Of a stretch of 64,000 nucleotides of DNA, positions 5,222 to 64,000 are shown one piece after another; position 1 is the stretch's first letter; the number at the start of each line of letters is the position of its first letter. The notes under the pieces are model-generated. The model had not been told where the DNA came from, did no database searches, and saw only the letters and a list, made by a program, of their open reading frames with translations. The DNA comes from Antedon mediterranea (lineage: Eukaryota > Echinodermata > Crinoidea > Comatulida > Antedonidae): assembly GCF_964355755.1 (NCBI RefSeq), contig NC_092679.1, positions 17,970,932 through 18,034,931 on the forward strand, in the 5' to 3' direction. A program made the translations under genes and the position numbers.

Positions 5222-8200
5222 CTAAAACAATAAAGACAAGGCGGATTAACATTAATATGAATATAGCACATAGGTGAAAAAAAAGGTTGAAATAGTGGGA
5301 AGAAGGTATAGAAAATAGACTCACATATGAGATGTTCCTATTCCCAAATAATTGACAAATAAAAAGCTTTTCAGTATTTGAGTATTTTTCAGTAAAGTCA
5401 CAATGGAAAATAGGAAATCCAAATTTCTCATTTACAACAAATTATATTTGTTTTTAATTAATAGCATGTTTAATCAACAAATTTTAATTTCAATATTTGT
5501 AATTTGTATAGTGCAATTACACAGTGACAATACATTTCATTGTAGCTTTGGTGAAATGGAGAACAGAAAAAAAAACATGTTATTATATGTTACTTGTATA
5601 GTTTTGAGTTTCTCCATGCCTAGAATATATATATATATATGTATACATATGTCGTATATATAAATCCAAAGGCAAATTACTGAAAAAAATGACAATGCTG
5701 TGGGTATCAGTGGCTGGATCTCAATGGAGATACAAAAATAAAAAGCAAAAAGCTAAATCAAAACGATAAAGTAAACATATATATAATATACATAAATGAG
5801 AAAATCTATGCTTGGAAAATGTATATATATATCCGTATAAATATGTCGTATATATAATATATATATAAATGAGAATAATCTATGCTTGGAAAATGTATAT
5901 ATACAAATGTCGTATATATAAAAATATACACAAATGAGAAAATAGCTCAGAACCAAAACAAAGGGAATACTTTATTTTACGTAGTTTTGTGCAACTGTAT
6001 CTTTAAAAAAGGTTTAAAGGTCAACGATTCAGATTAACCAATCAACATTCTTGAGTACATACTCAATGTTTTATATTATCCAATCAAAATACATAATGGT
6101 TCTCATCCAAGTCATTATGTTATTGATAGCATCTATATTTGGCAACTATCTATCTTGAATATATTTTTAGATTTAATTGGTAACATCTGACCTAAAATAT
6201 ATAATAATAGATTAAGTTTGCGAGTAGTAAGTCCCTGCAGCTCTAATTCCTCTTTTATTTTTAATTCAAATAAAAAAAGAAATTTATTTTTACCATTAAA
6301 AACAATAAAGCAAAATGAATAGGTAGTTTAGAATCTAAGCTTGACTCAACTACCAACAAGTGATAGCACATACTCTATATAAGTTTTTATGGCGAGCTAA
6401 TTACGCGGAGTGTGGAGCTACTACCTCAGAGTAGGATTATATGAGTGAGGGCTATTTCTCAGGGAGGACTTATATATGTGTGAGCTATTCCTAAGGGTGG
6501 ACTTATACATGAGTGTGGGCTACTCCTCAGGGTGGACTTAACACGAGTGTGGGCTATTCCTCAAGGTAAACTTATACATGAGTATGGGCTATTGCTCAGG
6601 GTGGACTTATACATGAGTGTGCAGTGATGTACAGCCACAAGAAATAAAGTGGTTCGGTTTTCGCAAGAAAAGGGAAACACCTCTGTTAAGCCACTGGGTT
6701 GTCAAATGCATCTGTGAAAAAGTGGTCACTGAAACCTTCCCAACCATACTGGTGGCTACAGCCCTGGTGTGGGCTATTCCTCAGGGTGGACTTATACATG
6801 AGTGTGGGCTATTCCTCAGGGTAGACTTATACATGACTGTGGGCTATTCCTCAGGGTGGACTTATACATGAGTGTGGGCTAGTCCTCAGGGTGGACTTAT
6901 ACATGAGTGTGGGCTATTCCTCAGGGTGGACTTATACATGAGTGTGGGCTATTCCTCAGGGTGGACTTATACATGAGTGTGGGCTATTCCTCAGGGTGGA
7001 CTTATACATGAGTGTGGGCTATTCCTCAGGGTGGACTTATACATGAGTGTGGGCTATTCCTCAGGGTAGACTTATACGCAAGTATGGGCTATTCCGCAAG
7101 GTGGACTTATACATGACTGTGGGCTATTCCTCAGGGTGGACTTATACATGACTGTGGGCTATTCCTCAGGGTGGACTTATACATGAGTGTGGGCTATTCC
7201 TCAGGGTGGACTTATACATGAGTGTGGGCTATTCCTCAGGGTGGACTTATACATGAGTGTGGGCTATTCCTCAGGGTGGACTTATACATGAGTGTAGGCT
7301 AATACCTCCGAGGATAAACCTATACATTAATAGAGTAGTACTAGTTTATGTTACATTAATGAATTCAATTATTTCCATTGAATAAATATTTATGTTTTTA
7401 TTTCCTATCCGTATAAAAAATCTGTGAAATTAATTACCACTTTTTTAATTCAATCAACTATATTGTAAAAATATATTTTAGATATTAAACTAAATAATTT
7501 TAAAATATCTTGAAAAATTTTCTTATAAAATTTTAATTATTACGATTGTTACAGATATTTTACTTATTTTGGAACCTGATCAATCCAGTACAAAATGGCT
7601 ATAATTGAATAAACATCAGAAGTGATAAAATTTATTATTAATTAACAAGCTATTTTCAAACATGTTTTTACAGCATTCGCCACAATCCAAGTATACGCTG
7701 ATCTGAAGCTGAACTTGGCAATCATGTTCTCGAAGGTGATCAGTCACGCGTGAAGTGTGATCGTTTAATTAAATGCACGCTGAAGAGAACCGACATGTAC
7801 TTAAGAGTCTGCAAACACTTTAAGTGACTGCCATTGTTAAGTCGAGGAATTACGATGCATTGTTATTTTCATCTTGGATTGCGAAACGGAAATAATAACA
7901 GTAATAATAATAATAATTTATAAATAGAGGAAAAATGAGCGCTATAAAAATAGAGAGAGATTATAATATTATACAAATAATGAATGTTTATTAGTCTAAA
8001 TGTAATAGTAGTTCAAACATATCCATATTAGATAGATCATGTATGATTCCACCAAACTTTCTAGGTTAAAATCACGATTGTGAGGCATTTGATAAATAGG
8101 CAAACTGCCTTAAAATATCATGTTTCGAGAAAATAATATCCATACTAGAGCAAAAATCTGTCAAGAAATACATTTTGAATTCTGTGGCTCAAATTATGTA

Positions 8201-11200: not shown

Positions 11201-14200
11201 TAGATTTTATAAACCCAGTGTTTACTAATAAATAACACCATTTTTGTTTTTACATTTTCCCCCTTGATTTAAACAAAAATATCGGCTTTTATAAACGTTT
11301 ATTAGTAAATAACACAATTTATTTGTTACATTTTTCACCCTATCGTTGAAATGATTACACGATAACAACCATTCAACATTCATTCTGAACCTTACCTTTT
11401 GTGTATCCCCTCTAATACAGCAGACATATATAGAGTTTGAACAATACCATGAAAGCCCCAGTGGTCTAATGGTTAGGAAATCTGCATATCAAGCAGAAGG
11501 TTCCAGGTTCGAATCCTGGTTTGGGGGACTTTTTCTAATTCTCACAGATTTCCTCATCTTTATCATTCGAAATTAATTAATTAAATTTCAGTATATCACC
11601 GGGCGGTTTAGAATTACTGTTCTATGCCTAATGTGTTATCTGATGAAGGGCTAGTGTTGCCCGAAAGCTCTGCTAACTTTTCTGGATGTTTTACTTATCG
11701 TTTTGATTTAGCCTTTTGCTTTTTTTTTGTATCTCCATTGAGATCCAGCCACTGATACCCACAACATTGTCATTTTTTCAGTAATTTGCCTTTGGATTTA
11801 TATATAAATTAATAATATATTATGTATAATTAAACTAATATGTATATATAAATTATAGTAGTTTATACCTGATAGCATGACATATCCTTCTTCTGTAGCT
11901 AAAAGCCTGACAATCTTCAAACGTTGCATTGTGCATACATGTTGACTTGTTACACTGACTTTTATTGCTGCATTGATACGTAAGAAAGATTAAAGAAAAG
12001 ACAAACAAAATACTGATAAGTTTGAAATATTAATATCATACCATAACGCTCTGTTTTAAAGGCTTTATTTCATCATAGGTTATAATCGCACATTTTTTAG
12101 AAATTTTTTAATTTGTTTTATAAAACACTAGTATTACACATTATGAACAAAACCAACATTCCTCTTTTTGTCAGCCTTAACCATTATTAGATTAAAAACA
12201 AAAATTGTACTTTTTTATCAGGCGGCTTAGAATTTGTTCTGTGTGTTGGTTTATATGTAAAAGTATTGTATCTCTTCGGAGATCTCACTGCATAAATAAA
12301 TATACTGAAAGATGCGGCCGGTTTAGAATTTCTTCTGTGCCTGTTGATTTGTGAAAAAAAAAACTGATATAATCAATTTCATTTAAGGTTTTGGGTGCCG
12401 CTATAAGTTACTGCATTATTTTATAATATTTCAAGATATTATTTTCCAAAATGAAAATTAAGACACGGATAGGAGACTTTCATTTAAAATACTCTATAGG
12501 CAGCATATGTTAGTTCTTTTGAGCACACCAACAACACTGTGCAACAGCAAATCTATAGTAATTTCAATTTAATTAAATTCTAACTAAAACTACTTTTATC
12601 AAATATCTCTGAAAGCTAGATTACATATATCACAACAACACGTGTACTAATGGTTTTTACTCGGGGGCTTAAATAGAAAATAATACATTTATATTTCATT
12701 TTCACAAACTTCTCAGAATATCTGATCGATATGTGGGTGGTGTGAATTTCAATTGTCGGTAATAGATCTAAAATTTAGATTAATAAAAGGTATTTTGAAT
12801 TTGATCTAAAACATTATAAATGTACATACTCGTACCCTAAACTGACTGTAGGATCTTGAGGACGAAACAAGTTTTTCATTAAATTTATCATTTTAAAAAT
12901 CAAACAACTATTTACATACTGTACCTAAAGAGAAAAAAAAGTGATAGTGAATGTCTAAATATGGTAATGATATGACATCATCATCATGTCCAAATATGGT
13001 AATGATATGACATCATCATCATGTCCAAATATGGTAATGATATGACATCATCATCATGTCCAAATATGGTAATGATATGACATCATCATCATGTCCATTA
13101 TATGGTAATGATATGACATTATCATCATGTCCAAATATGGTAATGATATGACATCATCATCATGTCCAAATATGGTACAGTAATGATATGACATCATCAT
13201 CATGTCCATTATATGGTAATGATATGACATCATCATCATGTCCATTATATGGGCAAATGTGATGTGACCATATATGGACACGATGCATGTTATATCACTA
13301 CCATAATTGGGCACATCACACTTTTTTGTCAAACTAGTTTGATAATGTCAACAGAGCTTTACAGATGAGTTATATACCATACCATCATTTTGAACACAAA
13401 GATGGGATGGCCTTATTATATATATTATATAGTACATCAGAATGGACTTAACCCAAGCACTGAAATCAAATGGCTCATTTTGCATAAAAATTATCAAAAT
13501 TAAATGAACCCACAACTTCCAGATCACTATAGTCTGGCGTTCCTACCTCTAGAGCACCGAGCTTGCGCTGATGGCTAGGGGTTAGATTCGAGCCCAAGTA
13601 AGTAGCGGGTACTGCCCAACAGTATTGACTCAATACCATGATGCAAAACTACTTTACAGTAGCAGGAACGGATTTAAGTGGGTGCTAAACAGGCTTTAGG
13701 CCCCCCCTAAAATTGTACTTTTTTAAATAAAATAATCACTATTTTTATTTTTCTGCATCCTGACGGATGGTTTTATCATTTATGAAATATTTAGCGCCCC
13801 ACCCCCCCTAATCTATAATGCTGGATCCGCCTCTGAGTAGTTACAAACAATTACAATTTCAAAAAGGATATAGATGAAGAAACTGAGTAGCAAGTTCTTC
13901 TGATAGCATAAACCACTCATGCATTAAAAAAAGTACACGTGGGAATGACGATTCCTCGATAACTTGCCCTGCGTCATCTGAAAAATACAACAAAATAAAA
14001 CAAATTAAGTGATAGGACTGTCCGACTTTTTTACAAATTGATAAATAAAATTGAAATCAGACTGGTTAAAATCAACATCACATCCTGTTGCCACCTTCTT
14101 TTGCTTTCAATTTTTTATTATACAGAAATATTTTCGAATAGAAATGTTGACATTCTTTGATTCTCTGATGACATTTTTGATTTGTACATTACATTTTCTT

Positions 14201-17200
14201 TTTTCAAACCTTCGTTTCATTGTTATTGATTGTTTCTATCTTTTGTGCTTTTCAAGGAAATAAATGTTTATTTTTATTTGATACATACAGTAGAAATAAA
14301 ACAAATTACCTAAACCCAAAGACTTGATATTATTAAGCATTATTTCAAGAATGTCGTTGAATATATAATTTGAAATTTGTCCTGATTTCTTGCTAAATTG
14401 GGGGTAATTTATTCACATAGTTATTAACAAGCTATTATTAATTATTCCCAGCAGAAACAGGTTATAAATTAATGTAGTGAGAGAATGAGGATAAACTTAT
14501 GTCAGATAAAACAAGATTAAACAATGTGCTACAATTTCAGACTTTAAAGCCAAACTCACCAAACATTTGATCTCAAAATATTAAATTGTTTATATTGTTT
14601 ATTCAATGCAGCTTATTCTTTATTGGTGTATTTCATTATAACTTTGTTTTGTTTTTAATTATTTTGTACTACTTAGTTTTGTTATTTTTGTATTGTATAA
14701 TAATGATGGAGTAAGAACAGTTTTCCTGTTTGGGCTCATGCCTTTTACTTGCTCCTACCAAATAAATATTATTAATATTATAGATAGATGAATATCGAGT
14801 ACGGTTTTTTTTTTCTACACTATCAAAAAAATTTGATGTGCCCATATATGGACATGATGATGTCATCACTACACCATATTTGGGCATATCACTTCTATAT
14901 TTGGGCACATCACATTTTTTGTTGTCAAACTAGTTTGATAGTGTAGACAGATGAAATTTTTAAATGAACATAAACACCTGAACAGCCATTGCTTATGTTG
15001 CGTACAGTATGTGTCAACCATACATAATCAATCTATGGTGATACTATATTGTATGAATGCGCACTCATGTTAACATCGCCAAACCTCTTTATCAATCTAA
15101 CCAGCAATCATCCATTAATTCATTTGACCTCACTAATCTAATCTAAGCATTTTTTCTGTAAACACTAACCATGCTACAGTAGTATTACAATGTTACATTT
15201 GACTTCACTAATCTAATCTAAGCATTTTTTCTGTAAACACTAACCATGCTACAGTAGTATTACAATGGGCCTGTTTCTGCTGCAACTGCTCAAAATACGG
15301 TATAAAAATACGGTATAAAATACGGTATTTTTTATACCGTATTTTTTAGTACCCCGTTTCTGCTAACAATACTTCTTGGGTGGTCGTGTTAAATTTCATC
15401 TTTTTTACCCAAATTGCCATTCATTTATTTGATCGATAACTAAAAGTCGCAATAAAGGAAGTTTTACGTCTCACTTTCAACAGCCGAGCCCTAGTGATAG
15501 AGATGTTGTGAGAGCACAGAAAACATCGTAATGGGGACAATTAATTCGTTCCCTCCCCGAGTTATTGTATTTTGCAATGCTGTACTGCTTTCGCAGGCTC
15601 TTCAGCTTTGAGTTTACTTGCTTTGGAGACAAGTCTATTCCATACTCCTGCTTTATTTTTTTAGAAATGTCTTTATAAATGTGGTTGTCCCTTTTATTAC
15701 CTTTTAGTTGGCCAGACATTTTAGCTTCCCCACACAAATTTATTTAGTAAAACTGTTACGTCTTCGCTCCACATTTTCGTCGAATATATATACACGTGTG
15801 TAAAACAGCTGACAGCGACAGAAAATAAAAACATGAATGTTGACCTTTTGTCATGTAAAAAAAAAATACTTTTTTATTGGCAGCAGAAACGGGTACAAAA
15901 AATACGGTATAAATTTGTAAATACCGTATTTTATCCACAAATTTTGTGGGGAAAATACGGTATACAAAATACGGTATATTTTTTATGAGCGCAGTTTCTG
16001 CTGCCAAAAATATACCGTATATATATGGTATTCAAAAAATACCGTATAATATACGGTATTTAGTTGGCAGCAGAAACAGGGCCAATGTTACATTTGACTT
16101 CACTAATCTAATCTAAGCATTTTTTCTGTAAACACTAACCGTGCTACAGTAGTATTACAATGTTACATACATGAAAAGAAATCAATACAATTATTAGGCT
16201 ATTTTAAGAACCCACATAAAATGTTGAGAAGCTCATGTAAATAATAAACAGTTTGTCATCGACAACGGGGGCAATGGGCTTATGATTATCCCACGAATTT
16301 TTAACGGGGTATTGCCCTTTCTTTGGGGAGAATACAATATACTTTTGTTAATTTATATGTGTTAAGTTTAACCATTTTTTTTATACTTATCAATATCACT
16401 AGTCAAAGGTTGTAACATGGACGTATACCTCCATAGTTGTAATAAGTCTTAATAGTGAAACATTTAATGATGCTCGTTTTTTTATGCTTGTTTTTTTGTT
16501 GAATGTATTGTTACTGTCTTTCATAAAGCGAAATCATTGTTTTTGTTCATTTATTGGGGGAAAAATGAATATTCAAAGTTTTTTTATTATATTTTATTCA
16601 TCTATATTTGTCATGTTTTTGGGGACAATAGTAATGACCGATTCAATCAATCAATATATAACTTTTGCTTATAACTTTTGCTTATAACCATGTTCATTTG
16701 TAGGCCGTTGCCAATATACAGTAATCTTCCTAAACACTATCTACTACTTTTAATACTTACAATATTATATGTTTTCATCTTTTCCATTGATTGTAAACCT
16801 CTAATTAAGCTTTTCAGTATTTTATTATTCAACTTCTATTTCCAATAATAGTCAATATAAACAATTAATTTTTATTATTATCATTACTGTAAATAATCAT
16901 TGTATATATTTTATAATTAATATTTATATAGGTTTTTTTTTTGTTTTTTTTTGTAAAAATCTACTGTAATATTATACCTTTATTATGGTTATAACAAGTA
17001 CAATTGATTGAATAAAGTTCACATAAAAATATAAATATAAAAAAATATCAAATTTACGAGGCATTCTATATACACTGCATAAATCGGAATACGATTTGAA
17101 AAACTTTGTAATATTTCATCCTGCATAGATATGTTGAATAAATACATAAATGAATAAATAATATTGATAGCTCATCAAAACAAATTAGAACATTTTATTC

Positions 17201-41191: not shown

Positions 41192-41197
41192 TATAAA
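41192..41197 (+). promoter_or_regulatory. TATA box of the GH1 gene
   Basis: GGTATAAATGG lies 222 bp before the chosen start codon. A transcription start near 41222 would give a 5' UTR of about 200 bases with several short upstream ATGs. Confidence 0.5.
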
Positions 41198-41418: not shown

Positions 41419-43411
41419 ATGGATGGTGGGCCGAAATGGATTACTATTTTCTTGTTATTGTTGAACATTTTTTTATACGGAGAAGGAGTATTTGTGTACC
41501 CAGAGGTGTTTAACGACACGGAGCGGGATTCTTTCGTGGTAGGAGAGTTTCCTAAGAGTTTCATGTGGGGCGTAGCCTCGTCTGCATATCAGGTTGAAGG
41601 GGCGTGGAACGAAGGCGGGAAAGGAGAGAGCATCTGGGACACTTTTACACACAAATGGATGCAGGAAAATAGTGACGTTGGCTGTAACGCGTACCACAAT
41701 ATTGACAGAGATATACGACTAATAAAGAAGATGGGATTGACTCACTATAAATTTTCGATGTCCTGGAGTCGTTTGATACCCAGTGGTAAAATCGTGGATA
41801 GTATAAACATACCAGGTGTCAATTATTATAATTATTTGATAGACGGTTTAATAGAGGCGAATATTACTCCTATTGTTACATTGTACCATTGGGACCTACC
41901 ACAGGCACTTGAGGATGATGGAGGTTGGCTAAATAACCAAACGATATCTGATTTCTTGGACTTTGCTGTTGTTTGTTTTCAAAATTACGCCGACCGAGTT
42001 CCGTACTGGATTACTTTCGACAACCCATATAAGTTCTGCGTTCATGGATACGGTAATGGCAGCCTAGCTCCTGGTACTGGTGATCCAGGAACCGGGCCGT
42101 ATGTATGCGCGAATAATGTAATACGGGCTCATGCCTTAGTTTATCGCATGTATTATAATAACAATTTTCGCACCAGTGTGAACGGAAGTATAGGAATCAG
42201 TCTAGATTGCGATTGGTACGAACCCAGAGATTCGCTGAATAGCTTTGACCTCGCGGCAGCCGAGAAGGCGCGTAAATTTCGCACCGGTTGGTTTGCGCAT
42301 CCGATATTTATGGATGGAGATTATCCAAGGACTATGAAGATAAACATTAAGGAGCGGAGTCTCCAGCAAGGATATAACATCTCAAGGCTTCCAGAGTTTA
42401 CGGAAGATCAAAAGGAAACGATTGCCAAAACGAGCGATTTCCTTGGCATGAGTCATTACACAACGAAACTTGTTTCGTCGCCGACATCTTCAGGTGATGT
42501 CACAGTACCTTCATGGGCGACTGATGTTAACTTTCAGGAGTCAGTGAATGCTTCCTGGCCGACATCTGCACACCCATCTGACAGAGTTGTGCCATGGGGG
42601 ATTCGTAAAGCTTTGACATGGATTAAGAGCGAATACAATGATCCAACCGTTCTGATTACGGGCAATGGAATTGCCACGTCTGGTCAGGCCGAGGATGCTG
42701 ATCGAGTGAAATATATCAAGGCTTATACAAACGAAATTTTGAAAGGTAATGTTAATTTCTAACACTTTGAACTAGGACTAAACGAGTAGTGTAGCCTATA
42801 TTAGATGATCCAAATTTTTGTTCTTTTTTCACAATCTACCGATTTATCACCAGATTCTGTGTATTGTATCTCTCCACATACGGTATGTCATTCTGTCTAA
42901 ATCTGTAGTGTACCACATCCGTGTAAAGTATTGTTGAATACATTCGCCAAATAGTGTATACATTGTGTAGTATCATTATCACATTCGTTTCTCCTCGTTT
43001 TCCACCGCTCTGACCATGTTTCATGTATTTTATTTATTTTAATACGTTCTCCATACTTTACTTCCATGATGATACTTAGTGTAGAAGAATGCACAGTTTG
43101 CATCAAAATATGTAAAAACCTATTTTCAATTTACAGCAATAAATGAAGATGGGGTAAACGTCATTGGTTATACAACAACCTTAATGGACAGCTTTGAATG
43201 GGACTTGGGATTCAGCTTGAAATACGGTTTACATAGTGTTGATTTTAACGACATCCATCGGCGACGAACTCCTCGACTGTCTTCGACATATTACGCTCAA
43301 CTTGCCGAAGAAAACGGCTTCACGACGAACAAGGCACCGTCACAAGCGATTAGTGAAACATTAATATTAGGCCTATTTGTAATTATTAGTTATTTATGCA
43401 TAAATCTATGA
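41419..43411 (+). CDS. Klotho/lactase-like GH1-family protein lacking both catalytic glutamates
   Basis: Two exons, 41419-42745 and 43137-43411, joined in phase 1 (donor GTAATG, acceptor TTTACAG), give 533 residues. After a signal peptide (residues about 8-23, ITIFLLLLNIFLYGEGVF) comes one full GH1 TIM barrel: FMWGVASSAYQVEG (49-61), NEGGKGESIWDTF (64-76), YHWDLPQAL (156-164). The C-terminus has LMDSFEWDLGFSLKYGL and ends in a hydrophobic stretch with no tail, as in GPI-anchored or single-pass proteins. The usual acid/base motif T-F-N-E-P reads T-F-D-N-P (Asn at 202), and the nucleophile motif T-E-N-G reads T-G-N-G (Gly at 415), so hydrolysis is not expected. The frame is otherwise clean. A receptor or sugar-binding role like klotho is inferred. 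An in-frame ATG at 41287 exists, but Met at 41419 gives the better signal peptide. Confidence 0.93.
42746..43136 (+). other. Intron of the GH1 gene
   Basis: GTAATG to TTTACAG. Removing it joins EILK to AINEDGVNVIGY, the expected GH1 order. Minus-strand open frames here are chance. Confidence 0.85.
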
Positions 43412-43622: not shown

Positions 43623-43628
43623 AATAAA
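43623..43628 (+). terminator. Candidate polyadenylation signal of the GH1 gene
   Basis: AATAAA about 210 bp after the stop codon and just before the minisatellite. It is the first canonical signal downstream of the stop. Confidence 0.4.
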
Positions 43629-43674
43629 ATTCGACATTTTGTATGTAAAAAACATCTTATTATGGGTGTTCATC

Positions 43675-44940
43675 CCTTACACGTCACGGGTGCTTATCCC
43701 TTACACGTCACGGGTGCTTATTCCTTACGCGTCACGGGTGCTTATCCATTACACGTCACGGGTGCATATCCTTTCCGATCCCCGTCATGGGTGTTTATCC
43801 CTTCCACGTCACGGGTGCCTTACACGTCACGGATGCTTAATTATCTCTTACACGTCATGAATGCTTATCCCTTACACGTCACGGGTAATCTCTTACACGT
43901 TACGGGTGCTATCCGGCCCTTACCCGTCACAGGGCCGTAGCCAGGATCTGTCAAGGGGGGGTTCGGACACTAAAGCATGCTATATAACCAATGAGCAAAA
44001 AGATCGTACTTTTTTCCTCCTCCTCAAACACGTCGATAATTTAAATGACGATAACTATTTGTTGCCGTATGTTAGATGCGCGTGCTCTGTGCGGAACCGC
44101 CGATTGTTTGATCATTTACTTCGTATTTTGTTTTGCGTTCAAGTTCAATGCGAACGTATATCTACAGCCCCGAAAAAAGCACACTGGGTGAAGGCAAATG
44201 CTATTTGCTAGCTCTATCTATAATATTTATTTACAGCAATTTGTTGAGGAATAAAAATATGTAAATAGGTGATATTGATACATTTTAGTACGTATCGGCG
44301 TGGTCTAGAAAAAAATAATCGGATGCCATAATGTGAACTACAGTACTTGATACCATAGATATTATAGTGTAAAATATTAATATTCACTATAATCCTCTAT
44401 GATACATTATACTTCATAGTCACACATAAATACTGATGTACGTCGGAAGGCTATATACTTTATGCATGCTGCCTGACTGCCAGTGATCTAAACAATTATA
44501 GGTACGCAGTTGTCTGGCGGTGTCCTTTGTACGAATCGTTCGTGCGCCAGCTCGCTATGAGACGCGTCAATATCATGTTACATGCAGGGACCAAACATTT
44601 ATTTTTCAGGTTAAAATCGGCAATTCATTTGCAGCTTTTAGAAATTTACAGACACGTATCACTAGTTGACGCTCATACAGAGAAGAAGGTTCACGAACAA
44701 GTTTACGAATTTTTCAATTTACAAACAACTTTCTGTACTGTGGGGCACGTATTTGGAGGATTTTTGGAGATGAGGGTGAGGTATTGGGCATGTTGGGGAT
44801 GGGGGTTCGCAGTTGGTTAAGGGGGGTTCGCTATAAAGGGGGGTTCGCCCGAACCATAAACCCCCCCTCCCCCCTGGCTACGGGCCTGCGTCACGGGCGT
44901 TTATCCATTACACGTTCACGGACGTTTATCCGTCATGATT
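43675..44940. repeat. 21-22-bp minisatellite split by a hAT-like element
   Basis: The unit is ACGTCACGGGTGCTTATCCCTT with variants. About eleven units lie at 43675-43929 and two more after the insertion (44889-44940). It begins directly downstream of the GH1 gene. The overlapping open frames in two phases come from the repeat. Confidence 0.9.
43930..44888. mobile_element. 959-bp hAT-like non-autonomous transposon
   Basis: Left CAGGGCCGTAGCCAGG and right, reversed, CAGGCCCGTAGCCAGG, each followed by G-rich sequence and GGGGGGTTCGG-like motifs. The 5-bp target duplication is CGTCA, cut from the minisatellite unit. The interior frames (44527-44820 and 43861-44211) do not resemble a transposase. 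Confidence 0.8.
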
Positions 44941-63658: not shown

Positions 63659-64000
63659 TTACGATAAAATGTGTTTTTTAAAATTGAATTTAAACGAGTT
63701 AATATTGGTACATTCTTTCAAAACAGAAGGTAATACATTATATAAAATACAAGCAGAATAAATAAAAGAGCGCCGGAAACATTCCAATTTAACTTTGGGT
63801 ACCAGCAAGTCTCCCCTGGAAGCAGCCCTAGTCCTCATAGAGTGTATCGGAACAGTGGAAAATCGTTGGGTGATGTATCGAGGGGCAATATTGTTCATGG
63901 CTTTAAAAGCTAGGCAGCCTACCTGGTACTGCACCCTCTGTGACACATTCATGATGTGGAGAGATGTTAGAAGAATGTGAGTGCTGGTGCGAGGCGGAGC
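63659..64000 (-). CDS. Non-LTR retrotransposon reverse transcriptase, C-terminal end (partial)
   Basis: The frame is open from the window edge to TAA at 63661-63659, 113 residues. It reads LTSLHIMNVSQRVQYQVGCL, then AFKAMNNIAPRYITQRFS, TRAASRGDLLVPKVKLECF and RRSFIYSACILYNVLPSVLK. This is the C-terminal region after the polymerase domain in CR1/Jockey-type elements ('LHWLPVxxRIxFKxxxLxFKALxxxAPxYL ... TRxA ... VPxxKxxxGxRSFxxxxPxLWNxLPxxL'). The catalytic part lies outside the window. The LINE clade is not certain. Confidence 0.85.
   Translation of the reverse strand, partial: APPRTSTHILLTSLHIMNVSQRVQYQVGCLAFKAMNNIAPRYITQRFSTVPIHSMRTRAASRGDLLVPKVKLECFRRSFIYSACILYNVLPSVLKECTNINSFKFNFKKHILS

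Follow-up and report, generated by a model that had tools for sequence, protein, structure and literature searches.

What becomes of a sugar-cutting enzyme gene that has lost the residues that cut? The question is raised by a GH1 gene of the crinoid Antedon mediterranea, located at 41419-43411 on the + strand of the stretch of DNA analysed here (the window), which comprises 64,000 nt (C10:17970932-18034931) of a genome of 354,431,138 bases in 18 contigs. The gene consists of two exons separated by one GT-AG intron, and the joined exons form a stop-free open frame of 533 codons. An earlier reading of the DNA, made from the letters alone (the sequence-only reading), had given the same coordinates, residue numbers and unbroken frame, and all of them proved correct when the frame and motifs were re-read.

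All features of the gene lie on the + strand. Exon 1 (41419-42745), defined by its frame and splice site and by a PF00232 match of 410 bits in a genome scan, encodes the signal peptide, most of the GH1 barrel and both catalytic positions. The signal-peptide region, residues 1-24 (41419-41490), was delimited by hydropathy (hydrophobic segment 5-26), with an estimated cleavage point. The intron (42746-43136) sits at LK/A, where it was also placed in the remaining five GH1 genes of the genome, whose models were chosen so as to join there. Exon 2 (43137-43411), placed by its frame and PF00232 match, carries the last barrel strand, an SFEW motif, the C-terminal tail and the stop. By eye, a possible TATA box (TATAAA, 41192-41197) is present ~220 bp 5′ of the ATG, a motif that is frequent by chance in AT-rich DNA, and a possible polyadenylation signal (AATAAA) occurs at 43623-43628. 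The protein as a whole matches PF00232 with 476 bits (cut-off 22.6), residues 43-504 covering positions 4-453 of the 453-position profile, and it contains one GH1 domain. The chance that another exon restores the missing motifs appears slight, as both motifs lie inside the single 1327-bp exon and the only GH1 matches found at the locus are its two exons.

Pfam searches with 10 chosen open reading frames of the window gave no match at E 0.01, so gene context gave no help. On the - strand, short open frames at 14672-14929 and 63662-64000 have, by eye, the look of a SANT/Myb-like domain and of a retrotransposon remnant, respectively (Pfam nil at E 0.01 for each). The window also holds several tandem arrays. 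A 24-bp repeat, GGGTGCTTATCCCTTACACGTCAC, is present in ~10.5 copies at 43664-43914, ~250 bp past the stop and directly behind the possible polyadenylation signal, and two 35-bp minisatellites of differing sequence occur at 6408-7301 (up to ~15 copies) and 12951-13252 (up to ~8).

The sequence-only reading held that both catalytic Glu are replaced and proposed an alignment with other GH1 proteins. The alignment made here combines the five paralogues from the same genome with 80 prokaryotic GH1s and a further seven GH1 domains from animals, and it places Asn202 in the acid/base column and Gly415 in the nucleophile column, as had been claimed. Relatives were sought in prokaryotic and viral collections; the prokaryotic rows are the best 80 of at least 587 relatives on genome contigs, predominantly bacterial and including two or more archaeal ones, and two partial viral matches were left out. 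One of the 80 rows was unreadable (6 residues). Among these best 80, both catalytic columns hold Glu and the platform column holds Trp in all 79 readable rows, and both Glu are likewise present in seven of the seven active-type animal rows, including all five paralogues. Judged from the alignment, the double loss is real and, within this genome, specific to this gene among the GH1 genes found.

By motif and alignment, the acid/base region reads TFDNP (residues 199-203, 42013-42027), with Glu202 changed to Asn (AAC) and Asn201 to Asp (GAC); the latter change is the loss of an Asn next to the acid/base that had already been noticed. The nucleophile region reads TGNG (residues 414-417, 42658-42669), with Glu415 changed to Gly (GGC). 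The alignment exposed further losses that are absent from the sequence-only reading. A conserved His is Asn at residue 232 (42112-42114), the conserved Asn of an NxY motif is Ser at residue 345 (42451-42453), and the platform Trp is missing, residues 455-457 (TTT, 43172-43180) containing one codon fewer than relatives do. The platform region reads GYTAWSLMDNFEW in active relatives versus GYT-TTLMDSFEW in the crinoid protein. Retained are Q58, H157 and E463, three sugar-pocket residues that had been reported as kept, and in addition W158, Y347 and W464; of these, E463 and W464 form the sugar-binding end of SFEW (residues 461-464, 43190-43201).

These losses are not scattered evenly over the protein. 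Eighty-six active-type rows (79 prokaryotic, the five paralogues, human GBA3 and GH1D2, the active domain of akuBGL from Aplysia kurodai) define 49 columns that are at least 97% conserved, and the crinoid protein differs at six: N201D, E202N, H232N, N345S, E415G and the Trp missing at 456/457. In a leave-one-out count on the same columns, the paralogues differ at 0 to 2, and akuBGL GH1D2 and GBA3 at 4 each. Five of the six changed columns are among 10 pocket columns, a list drawn partly from general background on GH1 enzymes (hypergeometric p 7e-4 over 49 columns), and the clustering persists (p 8e-4) over the 42 columns left after those forced by the prokaryote-fetching patterns are dropped. 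It is weaker with the seven animal rows alone, where 20 of 120 invariant columns are changed, five of them in the pocket (p 0.011).

In GH1 enzymes, the equivalents of Q58, H157, W158, Y347, E463 and W464 grip the face of the sugar that points away from the scissile bond, and the residues lost here surround that bond. The positions of kept and lost residues therefore suggest a pocket whose binding half is still present and whose cutting half has disappeared. Losses of the platform Trp and Asn345 may spoil sugar binding too. By our own mapping, the platform Trp presumably corresponds to Trp426 in work on archaeal GH1 enzymes. Alanine mutants of those enzymes are reported to show that both Glu matter, as do further residues including His148 and Trp426 (PMC11376072). 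Since Asn203Ala is listed there among the mutants retaining something detectable (PMC11376072), loss of the Asn next to the acid/base is not necessarily fatal to catalysis. For akuBGL, W631, E675, Y819, E934 and W935 are named as glycone-binding or catalysis-related sites (PMC10619976); we map them to W158, E202, Y347, E463 and W464.

Some residual chemistry might be imagined, in which Asp201 or a nucleophile from outside supports a slow or different reaction. A carboxylate does adjoin the acid/base position, as in the KL1 domain of alpha-klotho, which reads DNP like the crinoid protein, but the nucleophile and platform Trp are gone as well. Moreover, in akuBGL GH1D1 the acid/base place is taken by an Asp that lies 8.4 Å from the nucleophile; as a recombinant protein, this domain is reported to have shown no hydrolysis (PMC10619976). 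Altered catalysis is regarded as highly improbable.

Is the product still a folded protein, and where would it go? An AlphaFold2 model of residues 40-442 (exon 1 only, with 29 prokaryotic homologues aligned, and thus without the last strand, the SFEW motif and the missing-Trp site) reached a pLDDT of 89.0 and a pTM of 0.91. Its best match in the PDB is akuBGL (8in1; Z 50.0, rmsd 1.4, 394 aligned), followed by termite, plant, insect and human beta-glucosidases. All 999 of the 999 aligned PDB chains have a Z of at least 5, the rows shown being beta-glucosidases and their kin. Membership of the GH1 fold is predicted on this basis.

Hydropathy reveals two hydrophobic segments, 5-26 and 512-533. 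The second (43343-43408) ends at the last residue and is followed by no charged cytosolic tail. The membrane-type tail proposed in the sequence-only reading thus survives as a hydrophobic stretch and loses the look of a type I anchor; it looks more like a GPI-attachment signal, for which it is a candidate. Klotho, in contrast, is taken here to have a type I membrane anchor with a cytosolic tail. Four of the five paralogues have tails similar to that of the focal protein, and the fifth ends in KSEL. The count of six N-glycosylation sequons, compared with one to four per paralogue, is in keeping with an extracellular location. From these features we infer that the protein would be secreted and probably held at the cell surface.

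The paralogues themselves come from the PF00232 genome scan, in which 14 exon matches were read as six GH1 loci including the present one. NEP and TENG are kept in all five, which are 45-46% identical to the focal protein, and four share its contig at a distance of 1.6-2.3 Mb. At C10:16374500-16387200 there is a three-gene GH1 cluster with two close tandem copies ~5 kb apart and a third gene, on the opposite strand, with three introns in its model versus one in the other GH1 genes. Downstream of paralogue C10_15.69 is a Pro/Gly-rich tandem repeat (L002:2709-3042) with all six frames open for 68 to 101 residues. The paralogue at C7:25700200-25703200 lacks a hydrophobic tail; its C-terminus, KAKEKSEL, resembles an ER-retention signal, and trees pair it with cytosolic human GBA3 (81/50, 91/87, 81/49). 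Elsewhere in the genome, searches for COX1, molluscan haemocyanin and annelid linker gave no match, the latter two being equally silent in the control genomes.

The genome also encodes five active-type paralogues, four of which share the contig of the focal gene, and the dead protein could be their helper, folding together with them, stabilising or regulating them, or serving as an inhibitor decoy. Such roles have been put forward for akuBGL and discussed for dead GH28 proteins in leaf beetles: in akuBGL, GH1D1 is reported to be inactive and has been suggested to act as a chaperone (PMC10619976), and silencing of GH28 pseudoenzymes in Phaedon is reported to affect food conversion and development (PMC6549527). 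However, the molluscan dead domains share a chain with an active domain, whereas the crinoid gene is solitary and 1.6-2.3 Mb from the paralogues on its contig. A helper role is considered unlikely, while being the foremost of the alternatives weighed here.

Whether the gene is kept by selection was approached through a dN/dS analysis, as the sequence-only reading had proposed. A codon model was fitted to 473 codons of the six GH1 genes of the genome on an assumed topology, and an omega of 1 was rejected on the focal branch (2dlnL 51.2), a branch that covers the time before the Glu loss too. When freed, omega on this branch ran towards zero with a dS of about 77, which is saturated; because of this synonymous saturation, the rejection of omega 1 is reported and not a value of omega.

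A recent loss of function, with the frame still open by chance, would make the gene a young pseudogene. Such a loss could be made good by the five paralogues, all with intact motifs; the focal branch is long (0.96 versus 0.49-0.65 for three paralogues), and a neutral tail of up to ~dS 0.03-0.05 is compatible with the data. A longer neutral tail is rejected, however. Adding one to the branch lowers the likelihood, the 2dlnL drop reaching 3.87 at dS 0.05, and the absence of stops in 533 codons bounds the tail near dS 0.032 (at an expectation of 93.6 new stops for each neutral substitution per site). By a rough estimate, a neutral tail alone would alter ~5.5 of the 49 conserved residues at 0.05 and ~3.5 at 0.032, so the number of losses proves nothing, and the case rests on the clustering of damage in the pocket and on double steps at the catalytic codons. 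To turn any Glu codon into that of Asn202 or of Gly415 takes two nucleotide changes or more, and a neutral tail of 0.05 would strike both codons twice with a probability of about 1e-4 or less, an argument that multi-nucleotide mutations would weaken. Start, splice sites and stop are also intact. The pseudogene explanation is accordingly held to be very doubtful. Given the clustering and the double-step codons, erosion of the pocket probably began while the remaining protein was under constraint. The suggestion of the sequence-only reading that a GH1 protein without either Glu has been under purifying selection is thereby borne out, with omega 1 and a long neutral tail both rejected and the losses clustered in the pocket.

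The same reading had called the protein klotho-like and had proposed a tree that includes klotho sequences. Ranked by sequence match, the solved structures are headed by akuBGL, followed by alpha- and beta-klotho, and the acid/base is Asn in both klotho KL1 domains. Trees of 25 rows built on full columns join the focal gene to KL1 at 61/92, and at 67/93 with a second alignment. When six pocket stretches are removed from the second alignment, the gene leaves KL1, which suggests that the link is carried by the pocket residues and not by the remaining protein. Residues common only to KL1 number 10 in the focal gene versus 2 to 8 in eight other rows. AU tests rejected none of the clades tried for the focal gene, with p values of 0.50 with four of its own paralogues, 0.41 with all five, 0.31 with akuBGL D1, 0.16 with akuBGL D2, and 0.088 when it was joined in a single clade to the four KL domains. 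The KL1 grouping may reflect either convergence or a weak common signal. Two tandem GH1-like domains, a trait of the klothos, are not seen in the focal protein, which has one. Orthology with klotho was dropped as a candidate, since the KL1 grouping is lost without the pocket columns and 10 KL1-only residues are too few for descent. As an analogy between dead GH1 non-enzymes, the klotho-like label holds; membership of the klotho family is not supported, in view of the single domain, the GPI-like tail and a grouping that depends on the pocket.

A klotho-like function is a separate matter. The protein might serve as a co-receptor in the klotho sense, taking the tail of a growth factor into the dead pocket and presenting it to a receptor kinase. 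The change of the acid/base from E to N as in KL1, the full-column trees and matches to the FGF family at two places in the genome all favour such a role. Set against them are the few KL1-only residues, the disappearance of the KL1 grouping with the pocket columns, and a GPI-like tail that leaves no cytosolic part. In addition, beta-klotho is reported to bind the C-termini of FGF19 and FGF21 through KL1 and KL2 alike (PMC10628560), whereas the crinoid protein offers a single domain. A co-receptor of this kind is judged quite improbable, less so than the pseudogene.

On sequence evidence, then, the gene appears to be a real GH1 pseudoenzyme gene. Narrowly probable, in our estimation, is that its product is a secreted, probably GPI-anchored, single-domain GH1 pseudoenzyme that is kept by selection and that binds, at the cell surface, either a glycan or a ligand mimicking a sugar. 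The nucleophile, the acid/base and the platform Trp that the GH1 retaining reaction requires are all missing from the sequence, and we infer an absence of activity. In the proposed mechanism, the pocket half that surrounds the scissile bond (N201, E202, N345, E415 and the Trp) would have been dismantled, and the half that grips the far side of the sugar would have been kept (Q58, H157, W158, Y347, E463, W464). The kept half-pocket would allow the ligand to be bound at the cell surface without being cut, and this binding would be what selection has retained the protein for. A more specific version, in which the protein is a stand-alone, surface-anchored invertebrate lectin or receptor of GH1 origin, independent of the vertebrate klothos, with Asp-Asn-Pro reached by convergence and the nucleophile and platform Trp also lost, is put forward tentatively and is rather less likely to be correct than otherwise. 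The klothos provide the precedent of a dead sugar-cutting enzyme turned hormone co-receptor. If the crinoid protein evolved separately, it would represent a natural experiment on the passage from GH1 enzyme to binder, with the catalytic half dismantled and the gripping half kept; it would offer a defined pocket for ligand screening and suggest that the enzyme-to-binder route is not confined to vertebrates.

Several known systems bear comparison with this protein, and sugar-binding pseudoglycosidases are a recognised group (PMC7828330). The nearest solved structure is akuBGL (PDB 8in1), whose active GH1D2 is 46% identical to the focal protein (Z 50). Its other domain, GH1D1, is naturally non-catalytic and has N201D and N345S in common with the focal protein. 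In contrast to the latter, akuBGL combines dead and active domains in one chain, and GH1D1 keeps its nucleophile (E404) and platform Trp and loses the equivalents of Q58 and H157. Multi-domain digestive enzymes provide two further examples: domains 1 and 3 of shipworm LpMDGH1 are reported to be without catalytic residues in the NE and TENG regions (PMC5840672), and the first domain of Corbicula CjCel1A is a GH1 reported to be without catalytic residues (PMC10619976). Unlike these, the crinoid protein stands alone and has an anchor-like tail.

In beta-klotho, Asn241 and Ala889 are reported to replace the glutamates, one per domain (PMC10628560). Both alpha- and beta-klotho are, like the focal protein, non-enzymes derived from GH1, with Asn at the acid/base of KL1 and Ser or Ala at the nucleophile of KL2, versus Gly here; they differ in having two domains with one Glu missing from each, whereas the focal protein is a single domain without either Glu and without the Trp. 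KLPH/LCTL (gamma-klotho) has a single GH1 domain and presumably retains the nucleophile Glu. It differs from the focal protein in being a type I membrane protein, and it was not joined to the focal gene in the trees. It is described as a membrane-bound member of the klotho family that is required for normal lens sutures in mice (PMC13168428). An engineered counterpart is the E386G variant of rice BGlu1, which, according to the titles of its entries with cellotetraose (PDB 3scw and 3scv), has Gly for a nucleophile and still holds an oligosaccharide; the acid/base Glu is not among the changes that those titles name.

In the parts of the open-licence literature covered, no description of a stand-alone animal GH1 protein that lacks both Glu was found. 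Dead GH1 domains as such are already known from klotho, Aplysia, Corbicula and shipworm; the variation in the crinoid is a stand-alone, anchor-tailed and more fully stripped form.
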